Source of the DNA: Bacteroidaceae bacterium
GTDB taxonomy: Bacteria > Bacteroidota > Bacteroidia > Bacteroidales > Bacteroidaceae
Reading direction: 5' to 3'
NCBI GenBank assembly: GCA_017429945.1
Contig: JAFRNY010000037.1
Location: forward strand, 1-37,801
DNA length: 37,801 nt
A model generated the notes under the pieces. That model was not told where the DNA came from and made no database searches. It worked only from the letters and a program-made list of their open reading frames with translations. A program made the position numbers and the translations under genes. This document shows positions 1 through 35,242 of this stretch, in pieces; within the stretch, counting starts at the first letter, position 1; each line of letters starts with the position of its first letter.

Positions 1-26
1 CTCATAACCTCATAACCTCACTACTA
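1..26 (+). repeat. Period-8 repeat abutting the exonuclease start codon
   Basis: Three octads (ctcataac, ctcataac, ctcactac) run in phase from the window edge to base 24 and are followed by 'ta' and the ATG of the exonuclease III gene. The array may extend leftward beyond the window. No Shine-Dalgarno site is present, so this repeat is the immediate 5' context for translation. Confidence 0.7.
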
Positions 27-782
27 ATGAAATTTATCTCCTGGAACGTCAACGGCCTGCGCGCCGTCTGTGGCAAAGGCTTCAGTGATATCTTCCTCGC
101 CTTCGACGCCGACTTCTTCTGCCTGCAAGAGACCAAGCTGCAGGCCGGACAGCTCGACCTCGCCTTCCCTGGCTACCAGAGCTACTGGAGCTATGCCGAC
201 AAGAAAGGCTACTCGGGCACAGCCATCTTCACCCGCCACACGCCCTTGAGCGTGGCCTACGGACTCGGTATCGACGAGCACGACCACGAAGGGCGCGTCA
301 TCACTCTCGAATACGACGGTTTCTACGTCGTAACCGTCTATACCCCCAACTCACAGGACGGCCTGCGCCGCCTCGACTACCGAATGACGTGGGACGATGC
401 CTTCCGCGACTACCTCTGCCGCCTTGATGCCCGCAAGCCTGTGCTCGTGTGCGGCGATATGAATGTGGCTCACGAGGAAATCGACCTCAAGAACCCGAAG
501 ACCAACCACATGAACGCTGGCTTCACCGACCAGGAGCGCGAGAAATTCACGCAGCTCCTCGACGCCGGATTCATCGACACGTGGCGCACGCGCAACCCGG
601 AGGTCGCCGACGTCTATTCATGGTGGAGCTATCGTTTCCGTGCCCGCGAGAAGAATGTTGGCTGGCGCATCGACTACTGGCTCGTTTCCAACCGCCTCTT
701 CCCGCAGGTCACCGACGCCCGCATCCACACCGATATTCTCGGCAGCGACCATTGCCCCGTGGAGGTCGACGTAGACTTGTGA
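27..782 (+). CDS. xth: Exodeoxyribonuclease III (AP endonuclease family)
   Basis: A 251-residue protein of the exonuclease-endonuclease-phosphatase fold, the usual length for bacterial ExoA/XthA. It cleaves DNA 5' of abasic sites and removes 3' blocking groups during base-excision repair in the cytoplasm. Visible family motifs: N-terminal FISWNVNGLRA; the metal-binding Glu in CLQETKL (about residue 35); the GDMNVAH motif with catalytic Asp and Asn near residue 145; and the C-terminal GSDHCPV with the catalytic Asp-His pair. The ATG at 27 gives the standard MKFISWNVNG start; it has no Shine-Dalgarno site and is preceded directly by an 8-bp repeat. The stop at 782 is followed within 20 bp by the repeat block behind the convergent tRNA-Ser gene, whose hairpins could also end this transcript. 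Confidence 0.96.
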   Translation: MKFISWNVNGLRAVCGKGFSDIFLAFDADFFCLQETKLQAGQLDLAFPGYQSYWSYADKKGYSGTAIFTRHTPLSVAYGLGIDEHDHEGRVITLEYDGFYVVTVYTPNSQDGLRRLDYRMTWDDAFRDYLCRLDARKPVLVCGDMNVAHEEIDLKNPKTNHMNAGFTDQEREKFTQLLDAGFIDTWRTRNPEVADVYSWWSYRFRAREKNVGWRIDYWLVSNRLFPQVTDARIHTDILGSDHCPVEVDVDL

Positions 783-796
783 TTATTATCTCTTAA

Positions 797-1051
797 AGCA
801 AAGAAGGAAGCCTTTCGGCTTCCTTCTGATGCGGAGAGAGAGGGATTCGCGCTCGGCATCCCGTAGGGTGACGCTTTCGCGAAGACGAAAGAACTCCCCC
901 GGGGGTGAGAGTGCCTCTCAAGAAGCAAAGAAGGAAGCCTTTTGGGCTTCCTTCTGATGCGGAGAGAGAGGGATTCGCGCTCGGCATCCCGCCGGGTGAC
1001 GCTTTCGCGAAGACGAAAGAACCCCGGGGGTGAGAGTGCCTCTCAAGAAGC
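797..1051 (-). repeat. Two tandem tRNA-Ser tail/terminator repeats
   Basis: Read on the minus strand, the tRNA-Ser gene is followed by two further units of about 125-128 bp. Each contains an exact 19-bp copy of the tRNA 3' end (plus-strand positions 959-977 and 831-849; the genuine copy is 1084-1102), then a GGAAGCC/GGCTTCC hairpin like the tRNA terminator, then about 75 bp of shared filler with a CTTTCG...CGAAAG stem. The copies differ from each other by only a few substitutions and small indels. The layout resembles the tandem repeats behind the Escherichia coli tyrT tRNA gene, each of which also carries about 19 bp of the tRNA 3' end. Confidence 0.9.
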
Positions 1052-1076
1052 AAAAAAGGAAGCCTTTTGGGCTTCC
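1052..1076 (-). terminator. Rho-independent terminator of tRNA-Ser
   Basis: On the minus strand a perfect 7-bp stem GGAAGCC/GGCTTCC with a short A-rich loop is followed by six T residues, starting about 10 bases after the tRNA 3' end. Confidence 0.85.
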
Positions 1077-1084
1077 TCCTTTTG

Positions 1085-1169
1085 CGGAGAGAGAGGGATT
1101 CGAACCCCCGGTACCTTTCAGTACGTCGGTTTTCAAGACCGATGCAATCGACCACTCTGCCATCTCTCC
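1085..1169 (-). tRNA. tRNA-Ser(UGA)
   Basis: The minus strand folds as a class II tRNA: acceptor GGAGAGA pairs with TCTCTCC, discriminator G. The anticodon loop is CTTGAAA with anticodon TGA. A long variable arm follows (GTACTGAAAGGTAC region), and the T loop is TTCGAAT. CCA is not encoded. A TACCTTTG promoter box lies 30 bp upstream and a terminator immediately downstream, so it is a single-gene transcript. Confidence 0.96.
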
Positions 1170-1198
1170 AGTGAGCGCACATTTGTGGTTTGCGGGCG

Positions 1199-1206
1199 CA
1201 AAGGTA
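1199..1206 (-). promoter_or_regulatory. -7 promoter box for tRNA-Ser
   Basis: The minus strand reads TACCTTTG, matching the Bacteroidota TAnnTTTG box, about 30 bp upstream of the tRNA 5' end. No good TTTG -33 box is evident at the standard 19-20 bp spacing. Confidence 0.65.
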
Positions 1207-1507
1207 AGCAAATAAATGAAAAGAGAGAAATGAAAAGAGAAAAATTTTATTTCGGCGTCACTTTTTTCATCTGAGGAGTATATGTTGAGTAATTCTGCAT
1301 ACTCCAACACACCTTAATTTCATTCATCTTTCGTCATTCATCATTTCTGAATGGTGGCTTTGAACTTAAATCTTACTTAAATCTGAACTTAAAACTGTTA
1401 TTTGGTGGCTTCTTCGGCTTATCGCCTCAGAAGTTTACGGCCGCATGCGGCCTACCCATAAACGATAAACGATAAACGAAATTTCATTCGTCATTCATCA
1501 TTCGTCA
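1207..1507. other. Gene-free spacer with period-7 repeats
   Basis: No credible gene lies here. Four heptads (cattcat, ctttcgt, cattcat, catttct) occupy 1321-1348. A second in-phase run of eight heptads (cataaac, gataaac, gataaac, gaaattt, cattcgt, cattcat, cattcgt, cattacc) runs from 1457 to 1512, into the stop codon of the convergent pseudouridine synthase gene. A GGCCGCATGCGGCC palindrome sits at 1439-1452. Confidence 0.75.
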
Positions 1508-2182
1508 TTACCCCTCTCCCCTTATCCCCTGCCAGGGTCCTTCAGCGGGCAGCGGAGCCTCTACGTGGATCTGCTTGTGCGAAACGGGGTGCTCGAAACT
1601 GATGCTGCGGGCATGCAGGCTGATGCTGCCATCGGGGTTGCTGCGCGGCGCTCCATATTTGAGGTCGCCGCGAATGGGGCAGCCTATGGCTGCGAGCTGG
1701 CATCTGATCTGATGGTGGCGCCCAGTGTGGAGGTGCACCTCGATGAGGTGGTAGCGGTCGGAATGTCCGATGACCTCGTAGTCGAGCACGGCTTTCTTGG
1801 CTCCCGGGCGCTCGTGGTCGTAGGCGAACGATTTGTTCTTCTGTTCGTTGCGCACGATGTAGTGCGTGAGCGTGGCTTTAGGTTCTCGAGGCGCATTTTG
1901 CACGAGCGCCCAGTAAGTCTTGTGGACGCCTTGGGTGCGGAAGAGCTCGTTGAGGCGTGTCAGCGCTTTGCTTGTGCGCGCGAAGACGACCACGCCGCTG
2001 ACGGGGCGGTCCAAACGGTGCACCACACCAAGGAACACTTCGCCGGGTTTGGCGTAGCGTTCCTTGATGTATGCTTTCACCATGTCGGAGAGCGGCGCGT
2101 CGCCAGTCTTGTCGCCCTGGACAATCTCGCCGGCCTGCTTCGCAACGATGATAATGTGGTTGTCTTCGTAGAGAACTTTCAA
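1508..2182 (-). CDS. RluA-family RNA pseudouridine synthase
   Basis: About 224 residues of the RluA superfamily, which isomerises uridine to pseudouridine in rRNA or tRNA. The diagnostic HRLDRPVSG motif holds the catalytic Asp about 65 residues from the N terminus, and LHTGRHHQIRCQLA near the C terminus is the family's second signature. There is no S4 domain, so this is the short RluC/RluA-like form; its target cannot be read from the sequence. The start is unclear: no ATG is available. The TTG at 2182 gives (M)KVLYEDNHIIIV, the usual beginning in relatives, while another TTG at 2203 would add seven residues. Directly upstream are 34 heptanucleotide repeats separating it from fabG. With no promoter box in between, it is probably co-transcribed with tetR-fabG. 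Confidence 0.85.
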   Translation of the reverse strand: MKVLYEDNHIIIVAKQAGEIVQGDKTGDAPLSDMVKAYIKERYAKPGEVFLGVVHRLDRPVSGVVVFARTSKALTRLNELFRTQGVHKTYWALVQNAPREPKATLTHYIVRNEQKNKSFAYDHERPGAKKAVLDYEVIGHSDRYHLIEVHLHTGRHHQIRCQLAAIGCPIRGDLKYGAPRSNPDGSISLHARSISFEHPVSHKQIHVEAPLPAEGPWQGIRGEG

Positions 2183-2253
2183 CTTTTGGAGCAGTGAGAG
2201 CAATCAAGCTTGCTTGAATTGCCGAGTCGTGACAAAAGTCAGCGAAGCTAACT

Positions 2254-2491
2254 TTGAACTTTGAACGTTGAACATTGAACATTGAACGTTGACCATTGAA
2301 CGTTGACCATTGACCATTGACCATTGGCCATTGACCATTGAACGTTGAACATTGAACGTTGACCATTGACCATTGAACGTTGAACGTTGACCATTGACCA
2401 TTGACCATTGAACGTTGAACATTCAACTTTGAACTTTGTACTTTGTACTTTGAAATTTGTACTTTGAAATTTGTACTTTGAAATTTGAACT
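2254..2491. repeat. Heptanucleotide tandem array, 34 units
   Basis: Exactly 34 consecutive 7-bp units (238 bp) with no phase break. Nearly all begin TTG. The right third is a mixture of TTGAACT, TTGTACT and TTGAAAT; the left two thirds mix TTGAACG, TTGAACA and TTGACCA, with single variants TTGGCCA and TTCAACT. It fills the spacer between the fabG stop and the pseudouridine synthase start. Because 7 is not a multiple of 3, all frames on the minus strand stay open and give a spurious seven-residue peptide repeat. Confidence 0.95.
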
Positions 2492-2502
2492 ATGGCCGCG
2501 TT

Positions 2503-3240
2503 CTACATATTCATTCCGCCGTCGATCTGTATGACCTGTCCGCTGACATACGAGCTGAGGTCAGATGCGAGGAAGAGGGCTACGTCGGCCACGTCCTCGG
2601 GCTTGCCGCCGCGGCGCAGTGGTATTTTCTTCATCCAGTCTTCGCGCACGGCATCGGGCAGTGCGGCGGTCATGGCTGTCTCGATAAAGCCGGGTGCTAT
2701 GGCGTTGGCGCGGATGCCCTTGGGGCCCATCTCCTGTGCGATGCTCTTGGCCAGTGCTATCATTCCGGCTTTTGAGGCTGCGTAGTTGGCCTGTCCGGCG
2801 TTGCCGTGTACGCCTACTACGCTGGCCATATTGATGATTGAGCCACCGCGCTGGCGCATCATCACGGGCACACAGGCGTGAATGAAGTTGAACGCCGACT
2901 TGAGGTTCACGCCGATGACGGCATCCCATTGCTGTTCGGTCATGCGCAGCATGAGTCCGTCTTTGGTGATGCCTGCGTTGTTGACGAGGACGTCGATTGT
3001 GCCGAAGTCTTCTTTGACTTGCTTCACGAGCGCTTCCGTCTCGACGAAGTCTGCGGCGTTGCTGGCATAGCTCTTGCACTTGACGCCGAGCGCTGCTATT
3101 TCGGCTTGGGTCTCCTCGTTCACGGCGAGGTCTGTGAATGCGATGTTGGCGCCTTCAGCGGCGAATTTCAGGGCAATGGCCTTGCCAATGCCCCGTGCAG
3201 CGCCGGTGATGAGCGCTGTCTTTCCTTGTAATAGTCCCAT
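2503..3240 (-). CDS. fabG: 3-oxoacyl-ACP reductase (SDR family)
   Basis: A 245-residue short-chain dehydrogenase that reduces 3-oxoacyl-ACP with NADPH in fatty-acid elongation. The cofactor motif TGAARGIG is at residues 12-19 and NNAG at 87-90. The catalytic tetrad is complete: Asn112 (VNLKS), Ser140, Tyr153 and Lys157. The C terminus SYVSGQVIQIDGGMNM is characteristic of FabG. The ATG at 3240 gives a full-length family match. It lies 34 bp downstream of a TetR regulator on the same strand, suggesting one transcript and perhaps regulation of membrane lipid synthesis by that protein, which is inference. Generic SDR enzymes look similar, but the length and conserved C terminus favour FabG. Confidence 0.93.
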   Translation of the reverse strand: MGLLQGKTALITGAARGIGKAIALKFAAEGANIAFTDLAVNEETQAEIAALGVKCKSYASNAADFVETEALVKQVKEDFGTIDVLVNNAGITKDGLMLRMTEQQWDAVIGVNLKSAFNFIHACVPVMMRQRGGSIINMASVVGVHGNAGQANYAASKAGMIALAKSIAQEMGPKGIRANAIAPGFIETAMTAALPDAVREDWMKKIPLRRGGKPEDVADVALFLASDLSSYVSGQVIQIDGGMNM

Positions 3241-3274
3241 TTTTTATGTTTTGATTGTTTTGTTGGTTTTATAG

Positions 3275-3865
3275 TCAGTAGCGTTCGCGCCATAGCACTC
3301 GACGGATGATTTTCGTCACTATTGGGCGGGTGGCCTTTATGTCCATTCCAGCGCCTAGGCGCCCGTAGATATATGGTACCTCGAGTCCTTTGGCTGTGGC
3401 CTGGATGATGTCGGTGTAGAGCGTGATGTTGTCTATGTCGAACATCTTCATTTCCAAGCCTTCTTCGAGCGTCTTCTGTATGATGTCGTGCTCTTTCTTG
3501 TCGTACTTCTTGCGCACGCTCTCTACCTGCCAGATATTGCGGAAGAATTCGGCACGCAGGTATCCGTTGCGCTCGACGGCTTCTTTCATGAGGCTAAGGT
3601 GCGCGAAGATGAGCTCTACGAGTTTGTCGAGCGGCGAGAGTTGCTTGCGTGCCACGGCGAGGAACGTCGATGAGATGCGCTGCAGTTCTCCGTTGATGAC
3701 GGCTTCGTAGATGTCGTCCTTGCTTTTGAAGTAAGTGTAGAGCGTGCGTCGTCCCTTGCCTGAGGCTTCTGCGATGTCGTTCATCGTAGTGCCGTCGAAG
3801 CCTCGCTTGGCAAACTGCAGGCGGGCTATGTCGATGAGCAGCTGTCTCGTTTTAAGTTGTGCCAT
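3275..3865 (-). CDS. TetR/AcrR-family transcriptional regulator
   Basis: A 196-residue regulator. Residues 5-55 form the TetR helix-turn-helix, with the typical run GFDGTTMNDIAEASGKG followed by LYTYFKSKDDIYEAV; the remainder would be the helical ligand-binding and dimer domain. The open frame extends 43 codons further upstream, but the ATG at 3865 gives the normal MAQLKTRQLL start, and a promoter box at 3938-3945 would lie inside any longer gene. It sits immediately upstream of fabG, so it could be an autoregulator of fatty-acid genes of the FabT/FadR kind; the ligand is unknown. Confidence 0.9.
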   Translation of the reverse strand: MAQLKTRQLLIDIARLQFAKRGFDGTTMNDIAEASGKGRRTLYTYFKSKDDIYEAVINGELQRISSTFLAVARKQLSPLDKLVELIFAHLSLMKEAVERNGYLRAEFFRNIWQVESVRKKYDKKEHDIIQKTLEEGLEMKMFDIDNITLYTDIIQATAKGLEVPYIYGRLGAGMDIKATRPIVTKIIRRVLWRERY

Positions 3866-3937
3866 CTGTGTCTTGACTTTGTTCGGGTTAGGAATATTTG
3901 GCTCTCGGTTGACGAGTAATCTTCTTTTTCGACCGCA

Positions 3938-3969
3938 CAAAAGTACGTCTTTTATGCTTATTGAGCAAG
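3938..3969 (-). promoter_or_regulatory. Promoter of tetR-fabG
   Basis: The minus strand shows a -7 box TACTTTTG at 3945-3938 and, 20 bp further upstream, CTTG at 3969-3966 as a partial -33 box. The start codon is about 70 bp downstream. Confidence 0.65.
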
Positions 3970-4038
3970 AAAAGGCGACACACTTTTTGCGCACGTGTGC
4001 AAAAACGGGTCTTATTTAGCAATTTTTATTGAAAAAGC

Positions 4039-4069
4039 TTGGCAGTTCGATAAAAATAGCGTACCTTTG
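4039..4069 (+). promoter_or_regulatory. Promoter of initiator tRNA
   Basis: TTGG at 4039-4042, 19 bp spacer, TACCTTTG at 4062-4069. The tRNA begins 46 bp after the -7 box. Confidence 0.75.
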
Positions 4070-4115
4070 CACCCGCAAACGACAAGATAGCTTGTCTGAG
4101 GCGCTAAATTAACAT

Positions 4116-4188
4116 CGCGGAGTGGAGCAGTTGGTAGCTCGCCAGGCTCATAACCTGGAGGTCGCTCGTTCGAGTCGAGCCTCCGCAA
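4116..4188 (+). tRNA. Initiator tRNA-fMet(CAU)
   Basis: A 73-base cloverleaf without encoded CCA. The acceptor CGCGGAG opposes CTCCGCA, leaving the C1:A72 mismatch that marks bacterial initiator tRNAs. The anticodon loop is CTCATAA (anticodon CAT). Discriminator A. A promoter precedes it and a terminator follows, so it is monocistronic. Confidence 0.96.
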
Positions 4189-4204
4189 CTCAAAGCTCGA
4201 GAGA

Positions 4205-4237
4205 CCGTGTCTGGATTACCGGACACGGCCTTTTTTT
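4205..4237 (+). terminator. Terminator of tRNA-fMet
   Basis: A ten-base stem CCGTGTCTGG/CCGGACACGG with a four-base loop, then a run of seven T. Confidence 0.9.
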
Positions 4238-4314
4238 GTTGCCCGGAACGAAGCTCTCGGAGGCGGTTATATTAATTAATGTACGCACGTGAGAGAAGAT
4301 TTTCGGCTAAAAGC

Positions 4315-4345
4315 TTGCCTGTTACGTTAACTTGGGCTACCTTTG
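4315..4345 (+). promoter_or_regulatory. Promoter of the cobalamin operon
   Basis: TTGC at 4315-4318, 19 bp spacer, TACCTTTG at 4338-4345. It places transcription start just before the riboswitch. Confidence 0.7.
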
Positions 4346-4359
4346 CAGCCGCAAACGAG

Positions 4360-4600
4360 CAATACTTATGCGGTTCGCCCTTTCGCACGGGAAGGGCGCG
4401 AAGAGGGAAGCAGGTGTGAGTCCTGCACAGTCCCGCTGCTGTAAGCTCCGTCGTCGGGCCGGCAGACGTAAGCCACTGCACGTGCTGCCACGAGCATTGT
4501 AAGCGCACGCTCATCGTGCCTGCATTGCCGTTGCTGCCGTTGGGAAGGCGCCGTCCCGGGAGCGAGTCAGAAGACCTGCCACATGAGTTCGTACCTCTGT
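4360..4600 (+). ncRNA. Cobalamin (AdoCbl-type) riboswitch
   Basis: The leader carries the hallmark segments in order: GGGAAGCAGGTGTGAGTCCTG at about 4405-4425, followed by AGTCCCGCTGCTGTAA, then the B12-box type sequence GAGTCAGAAGACCTGCC at 4564-4580. A G/C hairpin (GCCCTTT...GGGC) lies at the 5' side. Boundaries are approximate. About 160 bases of further leader precede the first gene and contain GCCTGA and TCAGGC segments that could pair as part of the expression platform. By family knowledge, coenzyme B12 binding would switch off the downstream uptake genes, most likely by limiting translation initiation, since no clear T-tailed terminator is seen. Confidence 0.9.
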
Positions 4601-4759
4601 CGCCTCGAGGAAAGGTGCAGGGTCATAGGCGTGCTGCGTGCTGTGCGTTGCGCTGTCGCCGCCTGATGTTTCCCTTACTCTCATTCCTTGTGGCGGTGTC
4701 AGGCACAGCACTGTTGCAACGTAACGTCTTAATACATAATTCTAAAACTTACACAAGGA

Positions 4760-5485
4760 ATGAAAAAGAATCTTTTCGCACTCGCAGCGCTCACACTGAG
4801 CCTGACAGTTTTCACAGGTTGTAACGACGAGGATGAAGTGGTCATACGCACAGCCACGTTAACCTTCGAGGGCTCTGAATGGAACGCCCTGATCGACGAT
4901 GCCCAATATGGCGGTAAGCTCCTCTATGGCGAGAACTGCAAGAGCTATGCCTGGAGCGACGCAGCCACCGGCCTCTCGGGCGGCATGACGAATGCCTGGG
5001 GCGGCGACTATGGTTTCTCTGAGGGCGGCACGGCAATCTCCAATTACGTGGATTCCGACATCGCCAATCACGCCACCTACAACTATCAGCTCTCCGTGCC
5101 GGCCACGAATGGCAGCTCCAACTTCGCCATCGTCTACTGTGATGCTACAATCAAGTTCCCCACAGGTGTCAGCCGCTTAATCCGCTCGATGGAGATAGGA
5201 CCTACGACCTATGAGCTCGGCGTGGTCACCAACGGCGACGGCTATGCCTCATCGCTGGCTGAGAGCGGCAACCTCACTCTGACCATCACGGCCGATAATG
5301 GCAACAGCCTCAACGTAGATATGGCTCGTGACGGCTCAATCCTGGACAAATGGGTCACTGTAGACCTCACGAACCTCGGCCCGGTCAACAGCCTCACGTT
5401 CACGATGGACGGCAGCGACCGCAGCGACTATGGCGTCAAGCATCCTAAATACTTCGCTTTCGACAACGTCGTCGTTCAGCTCTAA
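4760..5485 (+). CDS. DUF4465-type surface lipoprotein, putative cobalamin binder (BtuH-like)
   Basis: A 241-residue lipoprotein, the first gene behind the cobalamin riboswitch. The signal peptide ends at the lipobox VFTGC (Cys20), and the following NDEDE is the acidic type of signal that sends Bacteroidota lipoproteins to the cell surface. The body has the look of the DUF4465 family: an aromatic/Gly-rich core (SGGMTNAWGGDYGFSEGG) and the C-terminal FAFDNVVVQL strand. From memory, DUF4465-type lipoproteins in Bacteroides B12 loci bind cobalamin directly (BtuH); I infer the same here from family and position. The ATG at 4760 is preceded by AAGGA, one of the few recognisable ribosome sites in the window. 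The gap to the next gene is 26 bp, so the genes are co-transcribed. Confidence 0.75.
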   Translation: MKKNLFALAALTLSLTVFTGCNDEDEVVIRTATLTFEGSEWNALIDDAQYGGKLLYGENCKSYAWSDAATGLSGGMTNAWGGDYGFSEGGTAISNYVDSDIANHATYNYQLSVPATNGSSNFAIVYCDATIKFPTGVSRLIRSMEIGPTTYELGVVTNGDGYASSLAESGNLTLTITADNGNSLNVDMARDGSILDKWVTVDLTNLGPVNSLTFTMDGSDRSDYGVKHPKYFAFDNVVVQL

Positions 5486-16116: not shown

Positions 16117-16125
16117 ATAGTGGTT

Positions 16126-16341
16126 ATGATGTCGGAATTGTTACACAATTCCTTGTGCCATCATAGCGGAACGGACCTTGGCTTCGTTTCACTTCGTCGA
16201 GCTGTCCGGGCTATGATGTCGGAATTGTTTACACAATTCCTTGTGCCATCATAGCGGAACGGACCTTGGCTTCGTTTCACTTCGCCGAGCTGTCCGGGCT
16301 ATGATGTCGGAATTGTTTACACAATTCCTTGTGCCATCATA
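16126..16341. repeat. Tandem duplication of the gdhA 3' end
   Basis: An 88-bp unit is present two and a half times (starts at 16126, 16213 and 16301; the first spacing is 87 because one T is missing). The last copy contains the final codons and stop of gdhA on the minus strand; the other copies repeat those codons plus 44 bp of downstream sequence. Within each unit CTATGATG/CATCATAG and GGAATTGT/ACAATTCC form nested stems around the gdhA stop codon, and the filler adds a GGAC...GTCC stem. Confidence 0.92.
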
Positions 16342-17657
16342 GCTTTAGCCACCTTCATGAAGCCGGCCACGTTGGCGCCCTTGACGTAGTTGATGTAGCC
16401 GTCGGGCTCGGTGCCGTACTTGACGCAGTTCTCGTGGATGTTCTCCATGATCCAGAGGAGCTTCTTGTCGACTTCCTCGGCGCTCCAGCTCAGGCGCTCG
16501 CTGTTCTGCGACATCTCAAGACCGCTGACGCTGACGCCGCCGGCGTTGCTGGCCTTACCGGGAGAGTAGAGGATCTTGGCGTCCTGGAACACCTTGATGG
16601 CACCGGGCGTCGAGGGCATGTTGGCACCTTCGGCCACAGCGATACAGCCGTTGGCCACGAGGGCCTTGGCAGCCTCCTCGTTGAGCTCGTTCTGTGTGGC
16701 GCAGGGGCATGCGATGTCGGCTTTCTCGAACCAGGGCTTGGCGCCGTCGCCGACGTACTTGGCAGAGGGGTATTCCTCGACGTACTCGCGGATGCGGCCG
16801 CGGTAGACGTTCTTGAGCTCCATGATGTAGTCGAGCTTCTCGCGGTCGATGCCGTCGGGGTCGTAGATATAGCCGTCGGAGTCGCTCATGGTGAGGACTT
16901 TACCTCCGAGCTGCAGCACCTTCTCGGCGCAGTATTGGGCCACGTTTCCGGCACCGGAGATGAGCACGGTCTTGCCCTCGATGCTCTCGCCGCGGGTGCG
17001 GAGCATGGCGCGCAGGAAGTAGACGTTGCCGTAGCCGGTGGCTTCGGGGCGGATGAGCGAGCCGCCGAACTCGAGGCCCTTGCCGGTGAGCACGCCGCTG
17101 AATTCGCGCGTGAGCTTCTTGTACATTCCAAACATATAGCCTACCTCACGGCCGCCTACGCCGATGTCGCCTGCGGGGACGTCCACGTCGGGGCCGATGT
17201 GGCGGGTGAGTTCAAGCATAAAGGCCTGGCAGAAGCGCATAACTTCGGCGTTCGACTTGCCGCGGGGCGAGAAGTCGGAGCCGCCCTTGCCGCCGCCCAT
17301 AGGCAGTGTGGTGAGCGAGTTCTTGAAGGTCTGCTCGAAGGCCAGGAACTTCAGGATGCCTAGGTTCACGCTCTTGTGGAAGCGTATGCCGCCTTTGTAC
17401 GGGCCGATGGCGTTGTTGTGCTGCACACGGTAGCCCATGTTGGTCTGCACGCGACCTTTGTCATCGGTCCATGTGACGCGGAACTGGTACACGCGGTCGG
17501 GGATGCAGAGGCGCTCGATGAGGTTGGCGCTCTCGAATTCGGGGTGCTTGTTGTACTCTTCCTCGATGGTTCCGAGTACTTCTTCTACTGCCTGGTGGTA
17601 CTCAGGCTCGCCTGGGAAGCGCTGCTTCAGGTCTTCCAATACTTGCTTTGCGTCCAT
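16317..17657 (-). CDS. gdhA: NADP-type glutamate dehydrogenase
   Basis: A 446-residue glutamate dehydrogenase of the hexameric bacterial class that assimilates ammonia into 2-oxoglutarate. Visible motifs: YKGGIRFHKSVN with a substrate Lys (residue 88), LPMGGGKGGSDF with the catalytic Lys (124), PAGDIGVGGREVGYM (Asp164), the specificity loop RPEATGYG, and the dinucleotide fold SGAGNVAQYCAEK. Length and N terminus fit the NADP(H) type. The frame opens 54 codons upstream, but the ATG at 17657 gives the normal start, and a TACCTTTG promoter box lies 80 bp before it. The C-terminal AMMAQGIV codons and the stop sit inside a hairpin that has been duplicated downstream. Confidence 0.95.
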   Translation of the reverse strand: MDAKQVLEDLKQRFPGEPEYHQAVEEVLGTIEEEYNKHPEFESANLIERLCIPDRVYQFRVTWTDDKGRVQTNMGYRVQHNNAIGPYKGGIRFHKSVNLGILKFLAFEQTFKNSLTTLPMGGGKGGSDFSPRGKSNAEVMRFCQAFMLELTRHIGPDVDVPAGDIGVGGREVGYMFGMYKKLTREFSGVLTGKGLEFGGSLIRPEATGYGNVYFLRAMLRTRGESIEGKTVLISGAGNVAQYCAEKVLQLGGKVLTMSDSDGYIYDPDGIDREKLDYIMELKNVYRGRIREYVEEYPSAKYVGDGAKPWFEKADIACPCATQNELNEEAAKALVANGCIAVAEGANMPSTPGAIKVFQDAKILYSPGKASNAGGVSVSGLEMSQNSERLSWSAEEVDKKLLWIMENIHENCVKYGTEPDGYINYVKGANVAGFMKVAKAMMAQGIV

Positions 17658-19253: not shown

Positions 19254-19545
19254 TATTTTTGGGCAAAAAATGCAGGCGAGCCTTCTTTTTTCGGTTTTCG
19301 CCGGTCAATCCTTGCTCTTTCTTTGCGGGGCGCGGTGGGAGATGCAGGCGGGGAAACCGCCTGCCGCACCCCGAGGAGCGGGCCATTAGGGATGCCAATT
19401 TTCAGTCTTCAGCCAGCTTTCCCCGAGGAGCGGGCCATTGGGGATGCCAATTTTCAGTCTTCAGCCAGCCGCGCCCTGGAGAGCGCGCCATTTGGGATGC
19501 CTGGCGCGCCCTTTGGATATTTGCTGATGATTCCGCGTCGGGGAT
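19254..19545. other. Gene-free spacer with 52-bp tandem repeat
   Basis: No credible gene. A 52-bp unit beginning CCCCGAGGAGCGGGCCATT repeats at 19369 and 19421; a third, diverged copy begins near 19472, where the first half becomes GCGCCCTGGAGAGCGCGCCA. Each unit combines a G/C-rich inverted part with the shared AATTTTCAGTCTTCAGCCAG segment. The array lies just beyond the 3' end of the PEP-synthase-like gene. Confidence 0.8.
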
Positions 19546-34969: not shown

Positions 34970-35132
34970 GTGAGCCTTAAGCGTAAAAATACCTACAGCA
35001 AAGGCTGAAATCATCAAAAATGGGTAATTGCCACTTCTAGCAAATAGCTACTCGAGTTAATGCTGAAGTCCGCAAATATCTTTCCACTAATTTAAATGGT
35101 TTTTGCTTGAGCGCGATGCACCCGTATGTGCA
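34970..35132. other. Gene-free spacer upstream of feoAB
   Basis: A/T-rich DNA between the feoAB promoter and the 22-bp repeat array. I see no gene and no clear iron-regulator box. Confidence 0.5.
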
Positions 35133-35242
35133 GCGCGATTCAACCGGCCGCAAAGCGCGATTCAACCGGTCGCAAAGCGCGATTCAACCGGCCGCAAAGC
35201 ACGATTCAACCGGCCGCAAAGCACGATTCAACCGGCCGCATA
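35133..35242. repeat. 22-bp direct repeat, five copies
   Basis: Five contiguous units of consensus GCGCGATTCAACCGGCCGCAAA at 35133, 35155, 35177, 35199 and 35221. The second has T for C in CCGGCC, the last two have GCAC for GCGC, and the final unit ends GCATA. There are no spacers, so this is not a CRISPR array. Confidence 0.95.

Follow-up and report, generated by a model that had tools for sequence, protein, structure and literature searches.

A dispersed REP-like palindrome recurs at one T-loop point of duplicated tRNA tails in Bacteroidaceae

The window analysed here, meaning the whole stretch under study, is a 37,801-nucleotide contig from a Bacteroidaceae bacterium (GenBank assembly GCA_017429945.1, contig JAFRNY010000037.1). 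Near its start a tRNA-Ser(UGA) gene occupies the minus strand at 1084–1169 (ARAGORN; Rfam RF00005, 60.2 bits), with its tail, CGAATCCCTCTCTCTCCGC, at 1084–1102 within the gene and a terminator-like hairpin and U-run directly 3' of it at about 1051–1080, recognized by eye and by script. Two units follow downstream on the same strand. Unit 1 comprises a degenerate inverted T-arm/tail with a direct T-stem half (GAGAGGCACTCTCACCCCCGG followed by GGTT; 1020–1047, from tail comparison by eye), a 42-nt stretch with two hairpins that we call element E (978–1019), an exact 19-nt copy of the tail (959–977, by sequence identity), and a terminator-like hairpin (929–955, from a terminator scan). Unit 2, also on the minus strand, comprises an inverted T-arm and T-stem half (892–920, by sequence comparison), a second 42-nt, two-hairpin copy of E (850–891), a second exact 19-nt tail copy (831–849, by sequence identity), and a second terminator-like hairpin (802–827, from the scan). 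Read 5' to 3' on the minus strand, the order is inverted tail/T-arm, T-stem half ending in TT, E, 19-nt tail and terminator. The junction in each window unit runs from GGTT into E and from E into CGA plus the remaining tail, with E placed at the expected T-loop continuation.

The repeat structure is clear by several measures. The tail of the tRNA and its two copies are spaced 128 and 125 bp from start to start, and Tandem Repeats Finder reports a period of 128 with 2.4 copies, 93% matches and a score of 533. The best downstream match to the 20-nt tail is 19/20, compared with at most 14 in 50 shuffles, which excludes chance. The terminator scan returned four minus-strand sites against a shuffled mean of 0.8; these include 929–955 and 802–827, the remaining two fall on the arm hairpin of unit 2, and the hairpin at about 1051–1080, evident by eye and script, was not listed by the scan. 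A covariance model built from 18 tRNA-linked E cores (R1) matches copy 1, a member of its training set, at 975–1022 (55.6 bits) and copy 2 at 847–894 (56.7 bits). These results confirm an earlier sequence-only reading of the locus, which had described two units behind tRNA-Ser(UGA), each with an exact 19-nt tail and a terminator. That reading had also called the filler well conserved between the copies. The two E copies are indeed 95% identical, but the filler is a composite that holds a dispersed repeat, which had been missed.

Facing the units is a convergent open reading frame of 251 amino acids on the plus strand (27–782, from the ORF listing), which we take to resemble exodeoxyribonuclease III. 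Its 80 best relatives share 72–86% identity; the top-ranked of them (80–86%) come from uncultured Prevotellaceae, Bacteroidales and Bacteroidaceae, several with rumen or reticulum in their names. The model matched E in two of the 80 loci around these relatives, one of them at an E-value of 0.1, and none of the 80 contained a tRNA-Ser(UGA) gene from the genus tail-match rows described below.

Element E has the layout CTT-hairpin-AAGCGTC-hairpin-GCCGAGCG and spans 42 bp in the window. Hairpin 1 varies in step on its two sides (CTTTC/GAAAG, CTTGC/GCAAG, CTTGA/TCAAG), and the inner part of hairpin 2 does likewise in most copies (CC/GG, CTC/GAG, CTCC/GGAG, CGC/GCG), pairing poorly in a CTCCTNCGTCG class. 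All 18 aligned cores carry AAGCGTC before hairpin 2 and all 18 end in GCCGAGCG, most of them having been collected with a pattern that demands both; CGGC stands in place of CGTC in genome G113 and in both Asn units (AAGCGGC copies). In the MAFFT alignment of the 18 cores, taken as made, 92.9% of cells pair, and pairing falls to 28–56% when partner columns are slid by 1–3; two rows (Asp and one Leu) look misaligned at their start. Changes on both sides of a pair occupy 15 cells, compared with 3.7 in shuffles. The count of pairs with a double change (3, reached by 104 of 500 shuffles) and the count of further pair types (7, reached by 410 of 500) do not exceed shuffles, so the paired-change support for the hairpins is real but modest.

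Such pairing is what one would expect if the units were an rtT-like trailer RNA, co-transcribed with the tRNA and releasing a structured small RNA, or serving as a processing decoy or sRNA sponge, hence the conservation of the hairpins. An RNA- or protein-binding role for E would likewise account for conserved hairpins. Folding of the unit transcript, much stronger than that of shuffles (z −8.24), is again in keeping with a trailer RNA, although the terminators and inverted repeats would lead one to expect it anyway. The repeats behind E. coli tyrT each carry a copy of the tRNA 3' end, and the sequence-only reading had drawn this parallel. As an analogy it holds, the tyrT repeats likewise being in tandem behind a tRNA gene according to the accessible part of PMC4986893, but the kinship goes no further, as the units stay below the gathering score of every Rfam family. 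RtT is not among the six Rfam release 15 matches in window positions 1–5000 at E-values up to 1, and the sub-threshold overlaps on the units (sX4, mir-4484 and a plastid 3'UTR model) lie below gathering scores. Unlike RtT, the present units occur behind several tRNA kinds and tmRNA, contain a dispersed element, and are known here from sequence alone.

Element E is a dispersed REP-like family. A 25-bp E core occurs at 25 places in the window's own genome at up to three mismatches (reversed control pattern, 0), and only three of these are tRNA-Ser units; on the 23 loci besides the two window copies, ARAGORN called a tRNA at the Ser(CGA) locus only. Three of the genome's 44 tRNA genes by Rfam model, some with less than 500 nt downstream, are followed by a tail copy other than a neighbouring tRNA: Ser(UGA) by two, Ser(CGA) by one and one Asp gene by one. 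A search for further duplicated tails had been proposed in the sequence-only reading, and the Ser(CGA) and Asp cases, absent from it, are what that search yields. Across the genus, unit DNA matches in 49 of 139 genomes, many through the dispersed core alone. Model R1 finds E in 69 of the 139 (at least 42 copies in the richest) and in 30 of 301 sampled family genomes, spanning 8 of 30 genera; tRNA-linked copies rank highest by construction because R1 was trained on them. A loose-pattern scan of viral sequences gave at least 120 matching stretches, from which nothing is concluded.

The flanks of dispersed copies carry a signal of their own. We sorted 120 distinct E copies with clean flanks by their flank letters, the set being confined to non-viral loci, to copies more than 60 nt from a locus end and to copies with a paired first hairpin. 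This gave 26 tRNA/tmRNA-like copies and 94 others, at least one of the latter (in G108) really being tRNA-linked and many coming from few genomes. Ninety of these 94 lie directly after TT. Many dispersed copies sit within heptad arrays, and the 7-mers to their left and right show an identity of 0.557, whereas shuffled pairs give 0.386 and at most 0.422. Length 7 stands well clear of the other lengths, though 5 and 8 reach or slightly pass their own shuffled maximum, and the weaker echo seen at offset 7 (0.424) is what heptad arrays should produce. These 7-nt near-repeats, which are absent at tRNA-linked E sites, may be pre-existing heptad arrays and not target duplications. With the 10 copies inside long ORFs set aside, the upstream gene is co-directional with E in 26 of 41 cases, a weak sense bias.

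MITEs are non-autonomous, dispersed and palindromic, as E is; E differs in that no transposon sharing its ends was found at seven loci. CGTC-tagged REPs, as the accessible part of PMC3733652 describes them, have an unpaired CGTC at one end of the palindrome, an 8–9 bp stem with AT nearly always in its first two positions, and a CCA-type unpaired tail; that part reports no linked transposase and places them in Bacteroidetes among other phyla. Judged against the same portion of PMC3733652, E is alike in being short, palindromic, dispersed and mostly intergenic, in varying in copy number between related genomes, in usually having CGTC beside a hairpin, and in having no linked transposase that we found. 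It differs in packing two hairpins into about 33–50 bp, in a hairpin 2 stem of about 2–5 bp that starts C-G (by eye) where the REP stem has 8–9 bp and starts AT, in ending in GCCGAGCG and not CCA, and in lodging at tRNA T-loops with host-matched tails. Because E departs from CGTC REPs in stem length, AT start and CCA tail alike, we call it REP-like and not a member of that class.

Two candidates for what moves E were tried and not supported. RAYT (PF01797) is present in 62 of the 139 genomes but not in the E-rich G058 or G103; a GTAG tag stands at no end of the 18 E cores. The idea that Es are the ends of a larger transposon fared no better, as genes that look ordinary by eye lie between the Es in those of seven loci with neighbouring copies where the pattern found at least two; at L534 and L536 it found none.

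Behind tRNA genes, E is found at one T-loop point in seven tRNA kinds and in tmRNA. Our table of such units contains 25 at 20 loci: Ser(UGA), Ser(CGA), Asp, Lys, Arg, Leu, Asn and tmRNA, the last called by ARAGORN. It was drawn from 24 loci, a unit entering only where E runs into CGA, TGA or CAA; in the four loci that gave no row (L447, L458, L461 and L463), an E-like hairpin with a diverged end or tail stands behind the tRNA. At L461 (G004), behind tRNA-Leu, the diverged hairpin is accompanied by a shortened tail copy and a repeat of the tRNA's own terminator. TT precedes E in 24 of the 25 units, the exception being GT in G108. The tail copy equals its own host gene over at least 19 nt from the T-loop in 19 units, and in the remaining six the host match breaks after 0, 8, 12, 6, 6 and 6 nt. 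Where the acceptor reads TCCTTCC and not TCTCTCC, in G094 and G108, the tail copies follow suit, except the second copy of G094. An intact tRNA or tmRNA stands upstream of all 25 units, 21 of the rows having been selected for that. A counter-example outside the table, L036 (G138), has an E unit without an intact tRNA; the tRNA-Ser body looks deleted in that contig, so that a short 5' remnant adjoins the tail.

The terminator is less regular. A separate terminator lies between gene and E in 14 of the 20 loci and none is evident in six: a loose script found none in G108 and G119, and the arm hairpin only in G046, G029, G081 and the Ser locus of G082, the terminator of G113 being read by eye. In those six, which include tRNA-Lys in G046 and tmRNA in G119, the units should be co-transcribed with the gene, as a trailer RNA would need. 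The T-loop junction is nevertheless more constant than the terminator position, which points to a rule at the DNA level.

Comparison of relatives shows units that differ in number and in at least one case have decayed. Among 92 genus tRNA-Ser(UGA) loci with at least 160 nt downstream, all from genomes other than the window's own, a tail match of at least 15/18 occurs in nine and of at least 14/18 in 14, five of these rows (L040, L192, L251, L262 and L263) reaching only 14/18 and some perhaps by chance. Four of the nine (L042, L178, L195 and L275) have fillers other than E. Element E lies at few genus tRNA-Ser(UGA) loci; by pattern, 7 of 94 tRNA-Ser loci have it, and the window's genome accounts for two of these. 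The comparison of copy number that the sequence-only reading had called for gives units in some relatives, but patchily, and the absence from all close relatives that, together with no transcript past the first terminator, would have marked a chance local duplication is not what we see. At a syntenic tRNA-Ser site, G094 has two units and G108 has one, and in G029 the unit has decayed and its E is truncated. At another site, common to G082 and G088, one genome has an E unit and the other a different tail repeat. The window genome's Ser(CGA) locus, aligned to syntenic G111, shows a 120-column gap made up of terminator, arm, E and tail (120 extra nt), a comparison that is supportive rather than strict because G111 has a tRNA-Ser(UGA) and an unlike terminator there.

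E can also differ within one array. In the tRNA-Leu array of G103 the unit flanks are 93% identical and the two Es 51%. The second of these has a CTTGCTCC hairpin subtype that, at up to two mismatches, occurs 63 times in G103 (the array copy included), 59 times in G058 and not at all in the window's genome. Five two-unit arrays were compared, and in the other four the Es agree at 95–100%, with identical copies in G046 and in G119, so exchange of E is seen in one array only.

Taken together, these distributions make a trailer RNA unlikely. E follows tRNA-Ser in so small a minority of loci, stands at tRNA-free places with little sense bias, changes type inside the G103 array, and has been left to decay in G029. 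Equilibrium folding further predicts that in a read-through transcript of the window the 5' end of the tRNA would pair with the last tail copy (0.92–0.95) and not with its own tail. The dedicated small-RNA source that the sequence-only reading had offered is accordingly less favoured; among the roles it listed, a recombination or insertion site is the best fit.

What kind of insertion is the next question. The classic signature of integration at a tRNA gene is a tail copy that starts in the T-loop and leaves the upstream tRNA intact, and the present units share it. The tails could then be remnants of attachment: the T-loop would be the attB of a tyrosine-integrase element, the attR-like tails would be left by internal deletion, and E would be an arm of attP. 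Beyond the last tail, G094 and G108 have terminators that look alike by eye and a downstream gene in common, as expected of an original tail. Of 18 genomes searched for integrase genes (PF00589), only one has such a gene within 5 kb of any unit on our list, some units being on short contigs that limit the count; this gene, in G094, is about 3.5 kb away and 5' of the tRNA, the wrong side for an element at the 3' end. The units are moreover about 90–140 bp and gene-free, one integrase would not typically account for a single E family behind tmRNA and seven tRNA kinds whose tails differ from host to host, and a distant blastn against 50,697 phage records gave no match. We regard such remnants as improbable.

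A further possibility is that the tRNA tail and its terminator were simply duplicated in tandem on the spot, nothing in them being mobile. It can point to L190 (G076), where a tail-like stretch and terminator behind tRNA-Ser(UGA) are tandemly doubled without E, and to the identical copies in G046 and in G119. It leaves unexplained why E sits at one T-loop point behind different tRNAs and at dispersed sites, and why Es differ within one array. The table of T-loop units already contradicts it as a complete account, and we give it very little credence.

We think it probable, on the sequence comparisons above, that E is mobile and REP-like and has come to lie time and again at the T-loop of duplicated tRNA tails, and that it is not a dedicated rtT-like small RNA. 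A unit would be a partial duplicate of the host tRNA 3' end, from T-arm to acceptor tail and here with a terminator, into whose T-loop the REP/MITE-like palindrome was inserted, at a point we take to be after T54-T55 and before C56 of tRNA numbering. E would be moved in trans by a putative enzyme preferring sites after TT. The duplicated tail may make such an insertion tolerable, because the upstream tRNA gene stays whole, and tandem units could then arise by ordinary recombination or slippage. The tail is usually host-matched, relatives differ in how many units they carry, and decay is seen in at least one unit, a pattern that is explicable without any host function. The inverted T-arm before E, with a loop change from GA to TC that recurs by eye in Ser, Lys, Arg, Leu and Asn units, lies outside what insertion explains.

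A more tentative version, which we hold possible though doubtful, is that E and a host-matched tail together form a minimal mobile cassette, a self-contained unit entering tRNA and tmRNA T-loops and regenerating their 3' ends. The cassette would resemble integrative elements, yet at about 90–140 bp, gene-free, and with a recombination site that is a hairpin, perhaps in single-stranded form, acted on in trans. Insertion of mobile E into duplicated tails would join two themes that are usually separate, the REP-like palindrome and the tRNA gene as a haven for insertions. The recurrence at T-loops with host-matched tails amounts to a natural experiment on tRNA 3'-end duplication, E bears on what moves REP elements without a known transposase, and the units suggest that tail repeats of the rtT type can have an insertion origin. 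We came upon neither E nor repeats lodged at T-loops in the open-licence PMC literature searched, including the accessible parts of PMC8040213, PMC4986893 and PMC3733652.

Other fillers occur behind tRNA-Ser. A second kind of tail repeat, at L178 (G011), L184 (G046) and L275 (G088), has an inverted tail and a palindromic filler, ACGCGCT...AGCGCTGAGAAG, accompanied in L178 and L275 by a direct tail copy. A third filler occupies the T-loop point behind tRNA-Ser(UGA) at L040, L041/L195 (G087) and L042, where it is internally doubled as CTTCGCTTCGCTCAGGCGGCATAGCCGG plus a second copy ending in GGAA. Elsewhere in the window, about 34 copies of the heptad AACATTG fill 2250–2490, and arrays of like heptads lie beside many of the dispersed Es. 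A cobalamin riboswitch (4354–4597, 93 bits) lies downstream of a tRNA-Met, and further tandem repeats occur at 16125–16343 (88 bp), 19369–19469 (52 bp) and 35132–35240 (22 bp), the last overlapping a listed ORF.
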